Source of the DNA: a virus
DNA length: 64,000 nucleotides
Strand: one strand, 5' to 3'
IMG/VR virus record: IMGVR_UViG_3300025012_000026
Span: 163,248 to 227,247 of that record
The notes under the pieces are model-generated. The model ran no database searches. It saw only the letters and a list, made by a program, of their open reading frames with translations, and was not told where the DNA came from. The translations under genes were made by a program, and so were the position numbers. This document shows positions 4,936-62,882 of the stretch, piece after piece. The first letter of the stretch is position 1. Every line of letters begins with the position of its first letter.

Positions 4936-5118
4936 TTAAATTAATTTAAACAATAATACAATTGGTATAGCAAATAATGCTAATATTCCTCCGAAAATTA
5001 TTGTGTATATTAATCCAACAACCACATATCCGAATAATTTAATAAGTATTGATAATGCTTTAAATAATTTACTTTGTATACTTAGTTTAAATAATAATAA
5101 TTTCCATTTTATTTCCAT
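4936..5118 (-). CDS. Small membrane protein, 60 aa
   Basis: Basic N-terminal third, then a hydrophobic stretch from about residue 25 to the end that could make one or two membrane passes. GAAAGAGG site upstream. Function unknown. Confidence 0.65.
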   Translation of the reverse strand: MEIKWKLLLFKLSIQSKLFKALSILIKLFGYVVVGLIYTIIFGGILALFAIPIVLLFKLI

Positions 5119-5138
5119 TAATATTATCCCTCTTTCTC

Positions 5139-5795
5139 TTAAATTATATTAAACACAACCTGCTCATGCCCCAAACCTAAGACCAATCCCTCAATATCTT
5201 CTTGCAAATTAATCATAGCATCATCAAACAATTTCCTATCTTTACCAATTGTATTAACAACATTTTGCTGTGCTTGCATAGATAATATTTGAGTGTCAGA
5301 TGGACTAAATTGATCGAATAGAAACATTGTATTTCCATCTGTAATTTTAGAGTTTTGAGTGTTTTGTTCAATATATAATAATTGGACTCGATTCTTTGGG
5401 ATGCTTATGTATACTTTCCCATCTTCGATTTTCAGAACTTTTATGTATTCAAGACTGTTGATTCCAATTCCAAAATTATATTCGAAGTCAAGAGTGATTT
5501 CTCTTAAAGTGAACTTATCAAAGAATTTATCTTTATTAGTTATTTTGCTAAAATAATTGTATTTACCTTTTAATGATGTAATTTCACCTACTTTTCTTAA
5601 TTCATTTTGGATTAGAGTTGGGTCTTGCATCTTCTTTAATTCTGCTGTTCTTTCAATATCTTTTTGATAATCTCTTAGTTGCACTTGTTCAACTGGTATA
5701 GGTTTTGGTATAGATAGATTGTGATATTTCATATAAATATTTGTAGCAAATAAAGTTCCTAATATTGTTAAAGCAATAATTGTTGGTTTTTTCAT
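5139..5795 (-). CDS. Membrane-anchored protein resembling DUF4230, 218 aa
   Basis: An N-terminal signal-anchor (residues about 5-22) is followed by an extracytoplasmic domain. The segment around residues 75-135 resembles the DUF4230 family by eye, a family of unknown function found in envelope-anchored proteins. The family match is from pattern memory only. The small membrane gene at 4936 follows closely, so both may act at the cell surface. Confidence 0.75.
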   Translation of the reverse strand: MKKPTIIALTILGTLFATNIYMKYHNLSIPKPIPVEQVQLRDYQKDIERTAELKKMQDPTLIQNELRKVGEITSLKGKYNYFSKITNKDKFFDKFTLREITLDFEYNFGIGINSLEYIKVLKIEDGKVYISIPKNRVQLLYIEQNTQNSKITDGNTMFLFDQFSPSDTQILSMQAQQNVVNTIGKDRKLFDDAMINLQEDIEGLVLGLGHEQVVFNII

Positions 5796-5830
5796 TCAAC
5801 TCACTTCCTAGATTTTATTTTATGATTTAA

Positions 5831-6172
5831 TTAATCATTGTTAGGCATAGGCCCACGATGTAACTTAACCCAATCAGGCTTATATCTTTCAAGCAATTTA
5901 AACATATTGTCTCTTCCTACTCCATCTGCTGTATGAAGAAATATTTGTTTAGGATAAATATTTGGATTATATTGTCCTAATTCAATAAGATATTTTACAA
6001 AATCATATCCAGTTGGCTCATTTTCGCCTAAATCGTGATCCAAACTAATAATGTTCACCTCTTGATCTAATTCTTTTAATTCGTCAAGTTTATAAATTAA
6101 TTGACTTACTGTTTTTACTAATATAAACCCATCTGGGCAATCGCGCAAATCGTCAAGATATAGTGATATCAT
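5831..6172 (-). CDS. cREC-type receiver-domain protein (cyclic-phosphate processing receiver), 113 aa
   Basis: Stand-alone receiver-like domain. Its N-terminus (L-D-D-L-R-D-C-P-D-G) and the central S-L-D-H-D-L-G-E motif match the family annotated as cyclic-phosphate processing receiver (cREC), proposed on comparative grounds to act on cyclic-phosphate RNA ends. The acidic pocket Asp residues and the Asp of the DHDLG motif are all present. Not a partner of any visible histidine kinase. Strong GAAAGGGGAG site upstream. The biochemical role is prediction, not demonstrated. Confidence 0.8.
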   Translation of the reverse strand: MISLYLDDLRDCPDGFILVKTVSQLIYKLDELKELDQEVNIISLDHDLGENEPTGYDFVKYLIELGQYNPNIYPKQIFLHTADGVGRDNMFKLLERYKPDWVKLHRGPMPNND

Positions 6173-23069: not shown

Positions 23070-24779
23070 TTATTTCAAAACTCTCGCTCTAATTTCTGCT
23101 AAACTTTCATCTCTTACTAATTTTCCATCAATAAATACATCTTCAAGTAAATCAATAATATCAATTGCATCTTTTTCCATTTCATTTAATCCATCAACCA
23201 AATAGATACCATTTTCACCATCAACTACTGCAACCATTCCTTTTTGAGATTTTTTGATTCCACCAATATCGGTTTTAGGATCTTTAAAGATAAACTTTTC
23301 AACTCCATCAATAACCGTATAAGTGGCCTTTAAAGCGAACGAAAATGTGTCTCTGGTGTGATAACCTAAAGAATAACTTCCAACTCCGTATACGATGTTT
23401 TCTGCTGAAAACCCCTTTGCTTCTAATTGTTTGAAAGTTTCTTCTGCAATTTCTGGACTTATGCTATCTCCATATATTAAGCCCACATGACTATCTAGTA
23501 CCTTATACCCTTTACTATTAATAGTTCCTCCAAAGGTATCCCATAATGCTTCTACAGAACCCTTTTGCTCTATAGTTAATTTTACTTCTTTACAAATATG
23601 AACATTAGCACCATCAATATAATAATATTGTTTATCATGTCTATTCCAATCAATTTCAATAACAATTTCATAATGCTTATCTTGAAATTTAAAAATTGCA
23701 TCTTGCCTAGAAATACCATGTTCTCCATGAGGTGTATCATTTCTTATATCGTCAATTATTCTCTCCAACATAATTTCCTTGCAATCTTCCAGATTATCAC
23801 AATATTCTTCATTGGTTAAATCTTCAACAATCACATTACCGCAAATAATCTTTATTGGACTTCCAGAATCAGGACGAATGACACACTTACCATTTCTACT
23901 CATAATATCATCTTTCAATGAAGGTAAAATATTCCCCAAGACATTAAAATAATCATACCCATCACTAACTATACTTACAATTCCACTAGGGGCAACTTCA
24001 GTAATCATTCTCTTAAAATATCTCAAATCATCTTGATATCCACATTGAATACTATGTTCCGTTGCTAACACACTTGCTGAAACTAATTCCTTTTCCACAT
24101 TAACACCATAATATTGCTCTAAATATTGAATACTTGGAATCGTATCACTACCAGTAAAATATAATAAATGTCCTGCTCCTGTAGTTACTGCATCTTCATG
24201 ACCACTCATACCTCTATAACTAAAATTATGACATTGCCATTGAATATGATCTTTACTATCACATGTTTTCTCAGCCCACTTTTCACAAATGTCTCTATAT
24301 TTCTTTACAATTGTTGTTGCAGTAATTACTTTCCACATATTTGCGGAAATCAATGTCTCTAAGAAATTAGTCAACCAATAGAACTCTTTTTTAGTATTTT
24401 CAATTGTAAACACAGGAACTTTCATTGGAATCAATGTGCCTTCTTTTACTGCCTTGATTTTAATAGGAAGGTATCCTAAATCATGTAATGCTTCAATATG
24501 AGTTGTATCTGCACAATTATCTCCTAGAGAATTTTTAATGATTCTTTTATAATCTGCAACTACTATTGATTTATCAACATTGAAAAAGTTTTCATTGAAA
24601 TTATCAATTAGATAATCTTTAATAAATCCTTGTAAACCAAAGAATACTACTTCATTAATTCCTTCAATTCTTGAATGTCTAGGCGTAAATGTAGAATAAA
24701 TTTTTTCTGTACCTTTTTCACTCATAATGAGGTGGCTTATTTTGTACGAATCTGTCATTAACATTGGATTTGTTTTCAT
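23070..24779 (-). CDS. nadV: Nicotinamide phosphoribosyltransferase (NAMPT/NadV family), 569 aa
   Basis: Joins nicotinamide to PRPP to make NMN, the first step of NAD+ salvage; phage relatives called Namat use ADP-ribose pyrophosphate to make NAD+ directly. Conserved marks: S-Y-K-I-S-H at residue 11, the catalytic-His region A-T-E-H-S near 240, V-S-D-G-Y-D-Y-F-N, the phosphate-binding R-P-D-S-G, and F-K-D-P-K-T-D near the end. It is about 80 residues longer than human NAMPT owing to an insert between R-P-D-S-G and A-L-W-D-T-F-G-G. Last gene of a three-gene operon with PRPP synthetase; only one nt separates it from the gene above. Confidence 0.95.
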   Translation of the reverse strand: MKTNPMLMTDSYKISHLIMSEKGTEKIYSTFTPRHSRIEGINEVVFFGLQGFIKDYLIDNFNENFFNVDKSIVVADYKRIIKNSLGDNCADTTHIEALHDLGYLPIKIKAVKEGTLIPMKVPVFTIENTKKEFYWLTNFLETLISANMWKVITATTIVKKYRDICEKWAEKTCDSKDHIQWQCHNFSYRGMSGHEDAVTTGAGHLLYFTGSDTIPSIQYLEQYYGVNVEKELVSASVLATEHSIQCGYQDDLRYFKRMITEVAPSGIVSIVSDGYDYFNVLGNILPSLKDDIMSRNGKCVIRPDSGSPIKIICGNVIVEDLTNEEYCDNLEDCKEIMLERIIDDIRNDTPHGEHGISRQDAIFKFQDKHYEIVIEIDWNRHDKQYYYIDGANVHICKEVKLTIEQKGSVEALWDTFGGTINSKGYKVLDSHVGLIYGDSISPEIAEETFKQLEAKGFSAENIVYGVGSYSLGYHTRDTFSFALKATYTVIDGVEKFIFKDPKTDIGGIKKSQKGMVAVVDGENGIYLVDGLNEMEKDAIDIIDLLEDVFIDGKLVRDESLAEIRARVLK

Positions 24780-24780
24780 A

Positions 24781-25281
24781 TTATTTTACCTCTTTCTTAT
24801 TCATATTATTTAAATACTCAGCAACTTCTTCTAACGATTTAAAATACATTCCACCATTTCTTTCTACTATTAATCCGACCTGATTTAAAGATTTCATTTC
24901 TCCAATTGAAAAATTAATCTTATCATTTGGATAATTAATTTTATCTATAAACATATTAATATCAGGACTTCCAAGATAGCACATTGGATTTGGTACTTGT
25001 GTAATTATTGGAACTTCAGAATTTAATATACAAAATATAGTTTTTCCAGGACGTTTGTTGCTATCATCTATAACTTCTGCAATACTATAGACTCCACTCA
25101 TAGACGGAGTAATTACATATAAACAATAATCACATGTTTCACGTTGTCTACGCTCTTCTATCATACATTCTTCAGTCCAATCCTCTACAACTGGATTAAA
25201 ATAGTTAATATTAAGCATTGGAATTAATTTGTCTCTCCATATACTATTATTACAAGTACCGCCAAGGAATACTTTACTCAT
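24781..25281 (-). CDS. Nucleoside 2-deoxyribosyltransferase-like protein, 166 aa
   Basis: V-F-L-G-G-T-C-N-N-S-I-W-R at the N-terminus, an acidic R-Q-R-E-T-C-D-Y-C element and G-V-Y-S-I-A-E-V-I-D-D near residue 80 match the nucleoside 2-deoxyribosyltransferase-like family. Such proteins break or exchange N-glycosidic bonds, so a role on nicotinamide, NAD+ fragments or nucleosides is plausible. It sits between Prs and NAMPT genes and overlaps their translation signals, so it probably joins the same pathway. The predicted nucleophile is not certain. Confidence 0.8.
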   Translation of the reverse strand: MSKVFLGGTCNNSIWRDKLIPMLNINYFNPVVEDWTEECMIEERRQRETCDYCLYVITPSMSGVYSIAEVIDDSNKRPGKTIFCILNSEVPIITQVPNPMCYLGSPDINMFIDKINYPNDKINFSIGEMKSLNQVGLIVERNGGMYFKSLEEVAEYLNNMNKKEVK

Positions 25282-25284
25282 GAC

Positions 25285-26109
25285 TTAATTACCTTCTTTC
25301 ATAATTTTATATACTTCAATTTTATCATTTAATGATTCATTCATAATAGTATCTGTAGTGAAAACTTTATCAATCAAGTCTGTTTTAAATACATCGCCTT
25401 TGTAAATTGATTCCTCGCAATGTCCAACAACAAGATAAATTTCAGAAGCTCCAAGTTCTTTAAGTTGTTTTGCACCAAGCAAAAATGTTCCTCCATAACT
25501 TGATAAGTCATCCAACATTATTACTTTAAATCCTTTTTTCTTAACATCTCCAAAAACTTGAAGACTAGTAATTTTACCTGTTTGAAAATCTCTATGTTTA
25601 AATCCAACTAATTGATTTGGAACGCCAATCATTTTACTATAACGTTTCTCACTCGAAGCATCTGGGAAATAAACATAATCAGTATCATCATTGAAATTAA
25701 TTTTGTCTTTAATATCATAAAAAATATCTACAGATAGGAATCTACTTTTACAATTATTTAATAATGCAGGAGTTACATCAGAATGTGGTTCCAATACATG
25801 AATATAATCAAACCCTAAATTATTAATAAATTCTGCAATATATTTTAGTGTAAATGCTGAACCTCCTTCCGATCTATCCATTCTACTGTATGGCATGTAC
25901 ATGATATGTAGATTACAATTTATTTTTAATTGGTCTAGATATTTCTTTAAGAACAATAGTTTAATCAAGTCTGCATCTGATTGATACTTAAATGTAGTTA
26001 ACGAATTATTAACACCTCCTAAAATCTCATTAATTTGTTGTTCATTGAGTTTTGTTTCCCCATTTGGGAATGTAGTAAAATCTAATAGTTTGTTATTTAA
26101 CCAAATCAT
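25285..26109 (-). CDS. prs: Ribose-phosphate pyrophosphokinase (PRPP synthetase)-like, 274 aa
   Basis: Family features: M-P-Y-S-R-M-D-R near residue 90 (ATP/ribose-phosphate loop), V-L-E-P-H-S-D-V near 125 and the PRPP-binding V-I-M-L-D-D-L-S-S-Y-G-G-T loop near 200. About 40 residues shorter than bacterial Prs. It would provide PRPP for the NAMPT; in the phage NARP1 pathway the homologue Adps makes ADP-ribose pyrophosphate instead. Sequence alone cannot tell which. ATG at 26109 follows CAGGAGG. Promoter at 26144-26173. Confidence 0.9.
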   Translation of the reverse strand: MIWLNNKLLDFTTFPNGETKLNEQQINEILGGVNNSLTTFKYQSDADLIKLLFLKKYLDQLKINCNLHIMYMPYSRMDRSEGGSAFTLKYIAEFINNLGFDYIHVLEPHSDVTPALLNNCKSRFLSVDIFYDIKDKINFNDDTDYVYFPDASSEKRYSKMIGVPNQLVGFKHRDFQTGKITSLQVFGDVKKKGFKVIMLDDLSSYGGTFLLGAKQLKELGASEIYLVVGHCEESIYKGDVFKTDLIDKVFTTDTIMNESLNDKIEVYKIMKEGN

Positions 26110-26143
26110 TTTGTTTCCTCCTGAAATATTTATTTCTATATTC

Positions 26144-26173
26144 ATACTACCACAATTTAGCATAATAAGTCAA
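26144..26173 (-). promoter_or_regulatory. Promoter of the NAD-rebuilding operon
   Basis: TTGACT (26168-26173), 18-nt spacer, TAGTAT (26144-26149) on the minus strand, about 35 nt before the prs start. Confidence 0.7.
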
Positions 26174-26590: not shown

Positions 26591-26688
26591 TATAAATACT
26601 TAACTCAAAATACCTAACTTAACACAACTCATCGCAACTTAACTCAAACCAACATATCTAAACCAAACCCAAAATGCTTATCTTAATC
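26591..26688. repeat. Left degenerate pentanucleotide array (11-unit block)
   Basis: After the 9-nt spacers tataaatac (26591-26599) and tcaaaatac (26605-26613), eleven consecutive pentamers of type N-N-A-W-C run from 26614 to 26668 in unbroken phase (one, tcaaa, lacks the C), then the spacer ccaaaatgc (26669-26677) and two more units reach the stop of the 154-aa gene. Same grammar as the large array at 27183-27571. No ORF. Position: directly downstream of the 154-aa gene. Confidence 0.85.
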
Positions 26689-27182: not shown

Positions 27183-27571
27183 CCATAATGCCTATCAAAT
27201 CACAGCGTATCGTACCTCAACGAAACCCATCTCAACACAACTGATCCTAAAATGCCTAACAAAACCAAACTCATCACATTCAAGACGCAACTGAACATAT
27301 CTAATCATATCCCAACTTAAAATACATAACAGAACTTATCCCATCCAATCATAACGCAACAGAGCGAAACTGAACCTAAAATACTCATCAAAGCATATCC
27401 AAACCCACCCAAACCCTACTCAACGAAACTGAACATATATTGCTCAACTTAACTCGGCCAAACTTATCATAACGCATTTTATCTCGACGTAACGTAGCAT
27501 ATATTGCTTAACTTATCGTAGCTTGCCCTATCCCATCTTAACTCGCCCCAACCCAACAGAACCTAAAAATC
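27183..27571. repeat. Right degenerate pentanucleotide array, six blocks separated by 9-nt spacers
   Basis: This fills the gap between the 154-aa and 192-aa genes and has no ORF. On the plus strand about 65 pentamers N-N-A-W-C (C almost invariant, position 3 mostly A, position 4 A or T) run in strict 5-nt phase. Spacers at 27183, 27247, 27317, 27376, 27435, 27499 and 27563 (ccataatgc, ctaaaatgc, ttaaaatac, ctaaaatac, atatattgc twice, ctaaaaatc) reset the phase. Blocks hold 11, 12, 10, 10, 11 and 11 units, so super-units are 59-70 nt. The plus strand is A/C-rich, the transcribed RNA G/U-rich (G-W-U-N-N). Confidence 0.92.
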
Positions 27572-27576
27572 ATATC

Positions 27577-28155
27577 TTACTCTACTTCTTCGACTACAGC
27601 TACAAACTGTCCATACTTAGGTCTACTATCACACAGTCCTACATATTTCCCTGCAAAATCAATGCTTTGAATTACAGCTTCTAGATCAATTTGAGACTCT
27701 TCATAATTTACAAAGAATGTAACTTGCCATGTGTCAAATCTTGCTCTAGTTCTTAAAATTGAAGCATTATTTACTTTCATAACTCTAACATCTCTATACT
27801 TTAAATCTGCTTTCAATTGTTCTTTGGTAAGATTTTCACCATATGCAAAAGGTATGTATAACGGTTCAACTGATAAGAATTTCTGAATAGCTGTGCCTTT
27901 CTTAATAGACTTAGCTCCATTTCTAATTGTGGCCTCTACATTTTCTGCTGGCATAAAAGTTCCCATATTATCCTTCCAATACAGACCACATTCCCATTCT
28001 AAGTCTGCAATCATTTCATGATCTTCGTCAGTTTTTGTTCTCTTACCCGTATATTTCTTTAGTTCCTTAGTTAGAGGATGAAGTGGGTTAACTCCTTGGT
28101 TTGAGTGCATAATTAATGGGGTAATACCTTTCCATGTAACTTTAAGTTTTTTCAT
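27577..28155 (-). CDS. Conserved phage protein upstream of the pentamer array, 192 aa
   Basis: Pattern seen in many phages without assigned function: T-P-L-I-M-H-S-N-Q at residue 12, a T-G-K-R-T-K-T-D-E-D segment near 36, F-M-P-A-E-N-V-E-A-T-I-R-N-G-A near 67 and G-L-C-D-S-R-P-K-Y-G-Q-F near 175. The last two motifs loosely recall RAMP-fold RNA-binding proteins (Cas5/Cas7 type), which form filaments along RNA. That comparison is a guess from short motifs. Own promoter at 28202-28230; the array starts six nt after its stop codon. Confidence 0.82.
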   Translation of the reverse strand: MKKLKVTWKGITPLIMHSNQGVNPLHPLTKELKKYTGKRTKTDEDHEMIADLEWECGLYWKDNMGTFMPAENVEATIRNGAKSIKKGTAIQKFLSVEPLYIPFAYGENLTKEQLKADLKYRDVRVMKVNNASILRTRARFDTWQVTFFVNYEESQIDLEAVIQSIDFAGKYVGLCDSRPKYGQFVAVVEEVE

Positions 28156-28201: not shown

Positions 28202-28230
28202 ATAATAACATGTTTATAGTAATTTGTCAA
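28202..28230 (-). promoter_or_regulatory. Promoter of the 192-aa gene and pentamer-array transcript
   Basis: TTGACA (28225-28230), 17-nt spacer, TATTAT (28202-28207) on the minus strand. No terminator is evident before the arrays, so these are probably transcribed. Confidence 0.75.
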
Positions 28231-62784: not shown

Positions 62785-62815
62785 ATTATTGCACCTCCTA
62801 TTTTTTGATACCACC

Positions 62816-62882
62816 TAGCAGGATTGTTATGAACCCTGCTAACGCTCTGAGCTTAAGGCGTTTTATACTGGATCAGACCAGT
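62816..62882 (-). promoter_or_regulatory. Three contiguous hairpins in a leader
   Basis: Three stems follow one another: 62867-62882 (actgg/ccagt), 62841-62862 (aacgc/gcgtt) and 62816-62841 (tagcagg/cctgcta), 30 nt before the zinc-ribbon start. Could be a structured leader or a terminator cluster. No known riboswitch consensus is evident. Confidence 0.45.

Follow-up and report, generated by a model that had tools for sequence, protein, structure and literature searches.

We report a degenerate pentanucleotide array in a viral metagenomic contig that we read, with a probability of roughly 93%, as the vrRNA bank of a phage-encoded VIPR system, in which a Vipr RNP would block transcription, three of the guides (B, C and D) being directed against the yonO-like gene of rival phages and a fourth (F) against their capsid gene. 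The window analyzed here is a stretch of 64,000 nucleotides, covering positions 163,248 to 227,247 of IMG/VR record IMGVR_UViG_3300025012_000026, a 227-kb virus contig of low GC content.

VIPR was described in 2026 as a CRISPR-like RNA-guided system (preprint PMC13142463). In the available part of that preprint, vrRNAs are presented as 9-16 units of alternating GGY and NN motifs, with 'a related consensus' besides GGY allowed for the triplet (fig. S17); DNA is read by the NN pairs with a skip of one target base from each pair to the next, and the vrRNA has an invariable 3′ tail that is structured in the SUSP1 clade. The same part of the source places the SUSP1 / P. fulva group in VIPR type II, with SUSP1 satellites and Pseudomonas prophages as its targets, and proposes VIPR as an ancestor of CRISPR RAMP proteins (PMC13142463).

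Data and methods

The array, its orientation, the homology of both neighboring proteins, the predicted fold and the target matches were computed in this work. For target decoding, the published 1-nt-skip rule was applied to six of the seven guides (all but E) over 2.9 million viral contigs, the collection scans using a 1-nt skip and the guides in their true order. Search cores comprised 9 NN pairs (18 fixed bases), and the leftover NN pairs of longer guides were kept as held-out checks. Related arrays were retrieved by a DNA-pattern scan of viral contigs defined by nine GNTNN units alone, which yielded at least 120 stretches.

Structure and orientation of the array

Over positions 27183-27571, identity at lag 5 is 0.48, whereas 2000 dinucleotide-preserving shuffles average 0.298 (sd 0.023) and never exceed 0.375; mononucleotide shuffles peak at 0.395 across lags 2-12, and identity in the array amounts to 0.47 at lag 10 and 0.42 at lag 15. 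This autocorrelation check establishes as real the 5-nt periodicity claimed in a sequence-only reading of the window. Parsed on the minus strand, which is the coding strand of the surrounding genes, the array resolves into 66 pentamers of the form G-W-T-N-N (G-W-U-N-N in RNA), with G at position 1 in 63/66, T or A at position 2 in 56 of the 66 (T 35, A 21, C 6, G 4), T at position 3 in 60/66 and positions 4-5 free. Within the array lie six 9-mers (GCAATATAT twice, GTATTTTAG, GTATTTTAA, GCATTTTAG and a terminal GCATTATGG), each of which closes a super-unit, and the super-units hold 11, 11, 10, 10, 12 and 11 pentamers, the one with 12 also containing a 1-nt insertion (Table 1). RNA folding of single array units was not above that of shuffles, and no structured 3′ tail is visible in them, the conserved 9-nt element standing alone.

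The sequence-only reading is supported in part. It gave about 65 units, grouped as 10-12 pentamers per super-unit, and seven 9-nt elements, where we find six inside the stated range. The array is indeed non-coding, its degeneracy is selected and does not reflect recent duplication, and a reader with a step of 5 remains the appropriate description; minus-strand RNA was also rightly named as the product to look for. The periodic bases are held as described, but the emphasis placed on them was not borne out, since the held G-W-U bases are best read as an anchor gripped by an oligomerizing RAMP protein and the NN pairs as the carriers of information. The assertion that no described element has this grammar has been overtaken by the GGY/NN pentamers of VIPR vrRNAs in the 2026 preprint (PMC13142463).

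A period of 5 nt is close to half a helical turn, and together with the intergenic placement it would also suit an element read at the DNA level twice per helical turn, such as an origin, a packaging site or a partition site. We regard such an element as extremely improbable here, given that the array is strictly co-oriented with vipr and the flanking genes, that the family associated with it is an RNA-binding RAMP family and that NN content differs between relatives.

Table 1. Features of the putative VIPR locus, in window coordinates
Feature	Position	Strand	Remarks
Promoter-like site TTGACA-17-TATTAT, 11/12, TG-extended	28202..28230	-	Ahead of vipr; a consensus match, such sites being not above chance in number in the region
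vipr, Cas7-like RAMP protein, 192 aa, phrog_4652	27577..28155	-	Just upstream of array
vrRNA array, six guides A-F, GWU/NN pentamers and 9-nt spacers	27183..27571	-	
Guide A, 11 pentamers	27508..27562	-	Without convincing target
9-nt spacer GCAATATAT	27499..27507	-	
Guide B, 11 pentamers	27444..27498	-	Decoded target: yonO-like RNA polymerase gene
Guide C, 10 pentamers	27385..27434	-	Decoded target: yonO-like gene, HSDGCGWI codons
Guide D, 10 pentamers	27326..27375	-	Decoded target: yonO-like gene, opposite strand
Guide E, 12 pentamers and 1-nt insertion	27256..27316	-	No target in the rival contigs
Guide F, 11 pentamers	27192..27246	-	Decoded target: SU10-type major capsid gene
Other 9-nt spacers	27435-27443, 27376-27384, 27317-27325, 27247-27255, 27183-27191	-	
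vap1-like accessory gene, 154 aa	26687..27151	-	Just downstream of array
Second array, guide G, 11 pentamers between GCATTTTGG and GTATTTTGA	26605..26677	-	Missed in the sequence-only reading

Proteins encoded at the locus

The gene upstream of the array encodes what, by homology, is a Vipr protein, a single-domain RAMP with a G-loop. The family profile matches the SUSP1 Vipr protein (PDB 36pp) with E=4.7e-47, and a single-sequence search gives 2.4e-25; the runner-up in the phrog_4652 profile search is the CRISPR protein Csm5, at E 0.017. Four residues are invariant in Vipr (G169, G173, R178 and G182). A Cas7/Csm3-like fold is predicted for the window protein, its AlphaFold model having a pLDDT of 95.9 and retrieving Csm3/Cas7 subunits in Foldseek (best E 7.8e-6). 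The protein encoded downstream is homologous to SUSP1 Vap1 (hmmsearch 1.2e-26, hhalign 6e-16), and its predicted fold shows, with weak support, a winged-helix-like N-terminus and a long C-terminal helix. The presence of a Vipr homolog upstream and a Vap1 homolog downstream thus identifies the locus as a VIPR system, and in the SUSP1 locus (KT454805) vipr, vap1 and GGY arrays follow the same order as in the window. A tree of 66 Vipr rows places the window protein and SUSP1 in one group of 20 rows with support 98/99; the closest Vipr (L113, 64% identity) accompanies an array of GTT pentamers with the same GCATTTTAG spacer. No cas genes were found among the neighboring proteins scanned.

The trp RNA-binding attenuation protein TRAP binds GAG/UAG triplets with 2-nt spacers. 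The triplet with 2-nt spacing seen here, the 10-12 (about 11) units per super-unit and the RNA-sense orientation would likewise suit a TRAP-like ring of 11 or 12 subunits, each binding one G-W-U of the mRNA, with the ring as a whole controlling translation of the neighboring genes. This explanation is highly unlikely: the triplet is a different one, none of 28 array-bearing records, the window's record included, has a TRAP (PF02081) match, the associated protein is a Vipr-homologous RAMP, and the variable NN bases decode to coherent targets.

Two further features of the window may be recorded. A NAD salvage set lies beside the locus on the minus strand (23070-26163), comprising a nicotinamide phosphoribosyltransferase and nucleoside deoxyribosyltransferase-like and ribose-phosphate pyrophosphokinase-like genes. 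Far from the locus, a Pistol ribozyme (Rfam RF02679, 55.3 bits) occupies 62809-62882 on the same strand; the available part of the VIPR paper mentions hammerhead-interspersed arrays (PMC13142463).

Decoded targets

Eight contigs were matched by guide F, seven of them in the SU10-type major capsid gene (phrog_1328/PF17236), and six of these seven matches lie at the QVEGSETTVF codons. Guide B matched 11 contigs, with 8/11 matches in a phrog_8308 (yonO-like) gene at TTENAMKWEK, and with 10 NN pairs it matched Clostridium sartagoforme and one MAG in a scan of bacterial genomes. The single contig matched by guide C was hit in the phrog_8308 gene at HSDGCGWI. Of the two contigs matched by guide D, one has its match on the opposite strand of a phrog_8308 gene, some 40 residues ahead of the DFDGD motif; the second (L143), an off-phase match in an unrelated gene, was discarded. 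The protein targeted by guide C matches SPbeta-group yonO along 90% of its length, and on grounds of homology phrog_8308 is here a YonO-type RNA polymerase. Both target genes, yonO-like and SU10-type capsid, are present on the 30-kb guide C contig (G051), and on a guide F contig (G033) the end of a phrog_8308 gene precedes the capsid gene. Such pairing of the genes on single contigs suggests that the four guides B, C, D and F plausibly share a single type of rival phage as their target.

The skipped base falls on the third codon (wobble) position in every on-type match, and the held-out 5′ NN pairs of guides B and F match in 14/15 on-type cases versus 0/4 off-type. The NN pair of the last pentamer is mismatched in on-type matches, so this pentamer should probably be grouped with the 9-nt tail. 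Skips of 0, 2 and 3 nt reached only the null level in the rival contigs, a descriptive comparison given that these contigs were picked by their 1-nt-skip matches.

The matches could also be seen as chance hits in abundant conserved genes, at a VIPR locus whose GWU variant does not obey the 1-nt-skip rule. Matches within one conserved gene are not mutually independent, guides A, E and G yield nothing convincing, and off-type matches occur at about the chance rate. Nevertheless, we consider this account unlikely, since yonO-like genes are the common target of three guides and a capsid gene is that of a fourth, the two genes share one contig, and both the held-out pairs (14/15 versus 0/4) and the consistent wobble phase speak for the decoding.

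As regards the remaining guides, guide A matches with 11/11 NN pairs at L156 715-746, and the same site and sequence recur in L157 (both contigs of GC ~0.43); this site, in the ribosome-binding/start region of a gene and outside any long reading frame, was judged probably a chance match. The 9-NN core of guide G had no match in the viral collection, and guide E, broken by its 1-nt insertion, had no target in the rival contigs. When some 270 guides from all loci were compared with 1.2 Mb of DNA, a database too small for the purpose, no skip rule was prominent.

The window phage has a phrog_8308 gene of its own (G000:3313-6960), which guide C matches at 15/18 bases, and guide B stays at the null level across the phage's whole genome; self-targeting would thus be weakened. 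A guide of L113 has its best match in this same gene (20/24, in the same codon phase), which is suggestive only. The gene itself, on G000:C1 and outside the window, shows two profile matches separated by a 1.1-kb gap (4992-6064), a pattern such as an inserted intron or intein would produce. The target contigs, with the GC content they show, lead us to infer a low-GC Firmicutes host.

Distribution of the array grammar

After removal of simple tandem repeats, the pattern scan left at least 109 degenerate arrays in at least 73 loci. In many of the arrays listed a single second base prevails (GGT, GTT or GCT); others are mixed. Among those listed that are not GCT- or GAT-dominated, the G strand carries both flanking genes in 61 and neither of them in 5; among the matches listed, arrays frequently span the whole gap from stop codon to next start, and phrog_4652 is the commonest flanking family (42/106 array-neighbor proteins). 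An iterative HMM search located Vipr in 68 loci, nine of which were fetched by protein, and the anchor strand coincides with the vipr strand in 51/53 loci of the G-[GTA]-T class. Another six Vipr loci (L045, L058, L063, L091, L092 and L111) carry AGC/NN as the sense-strand motif, not G-[GTA]-T/NN.

A DNA similarity search among named phages gave no match. Related phages, which the sequence-only reading had proposed to search, do share this grammar and differ in their NN pairs, which is what guides should show.

Some relatives depart further from the window's locus. Vipr relatives at L009 (4568-5310) and L012 (4570-6170) have arrays with an anchor of approximately [GT]GA/NN and AT-rich spacers, lag-5 identity being 0.44 in L009; in L012, a reading frame with a SPPYN motif (DNA-methyltransferase-like) apparently lies inside the array region. 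The L006 relative stays 99.9% identical as far as a point immediately upstream of vipr and is only about 85% identical beyond, a drop that suggests recombination next to the VIPR locus.

Discussion

The locus resembles SUSP1 / P. fulva VIPR in having a Vipr RAMP gene beside a Vap1-type gene, intergenic arrays of triplet/NN pentamers on the vipr sense strand, and 1-nt-skip targets, here computational, that belong to competing mobile elements and whose skipped bases are codon wobble positions. Its units combine a triplet with a hypervariable NN, and their number per guide (10-12) is inside the 9-16 range of VIPR. Against this reading stand the absence of the GGY core, the anchor here being GWU with G at position 2 in just 4/66, the lack of a visible structured tail, and guides A, E and G with no convincing target. 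The locus also differs from SUSP1 VIPR in its six guides, which are packed head to tail around 9-nt spacers, in its carrier, a 227-kb low-GC phage contig, and in its predicted targets, a yonO-like RNA polymerase and an SU10-type capsid.

With the Cas7/Csm3 backbone of Class 1 CRISPR-Cas the system shares a RAMP fold, a glycine-rich loop and a guide array that would be read by an oligomerizing protein; in contrast to Class 1 systems, the locus has no repeat-spacer array of contiguous spacers, the step is 5 instead of 6 nt and pairing would be gapped. TIGR-Tas, as its abstract-level description has it, is similarly a phage-borne tandem guide-RNA array, whereas the protein family here is another.

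By analogy with the published SUSP1 work (PMC13142463), from which we infer transcription, processing, RNP assembly and repression, a minus-strand transcript would be processed into short guides, each some 10 GWU/NN pentamers long, and Vipr, a single-domain Cas7-like RAMP, would oligomerize on each guide by gripping the anchor triplets. Pairing with double-stranded DNA would then fall to the NN bases, with one base of the target passed over between successive NN pairs, and the complex, once bound and with help from the Vap1-like protein, would block transcription, guides B, C and D acting on rivals' yonO-like RNA polymerase gene and guide F on the SU10-type major capsid gene.

On balance, we favor the view that the anchor varies with Vipr (GGU, GUU, GWU, AGC and KGA-like) over a fixed NN 1-nt-skip code, and that the clade of the window's Vipr has many head-to-tail guides with 9-nt spacers aimed at rivals' RNA polymerase and capsid genes, its own polymerase being spared by a few mismatches. 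The VIPR system is known, having been first reported in 2026; relative to the available part of that report, the anchor, the compact array and the targets appear to be new.

The decoding of GWU guides in a distant large phage provides independent support for a rule derived from the GGY guides of SUSP1. It predicts a conflict in which a low-GC large phage would silence two kinds of gene in its competitors, those for the YonO-type RNA polymerase and for the capsid, and the spread of anchor triplets among Vipr relatives makes the co-evolution of protein and guide testable.
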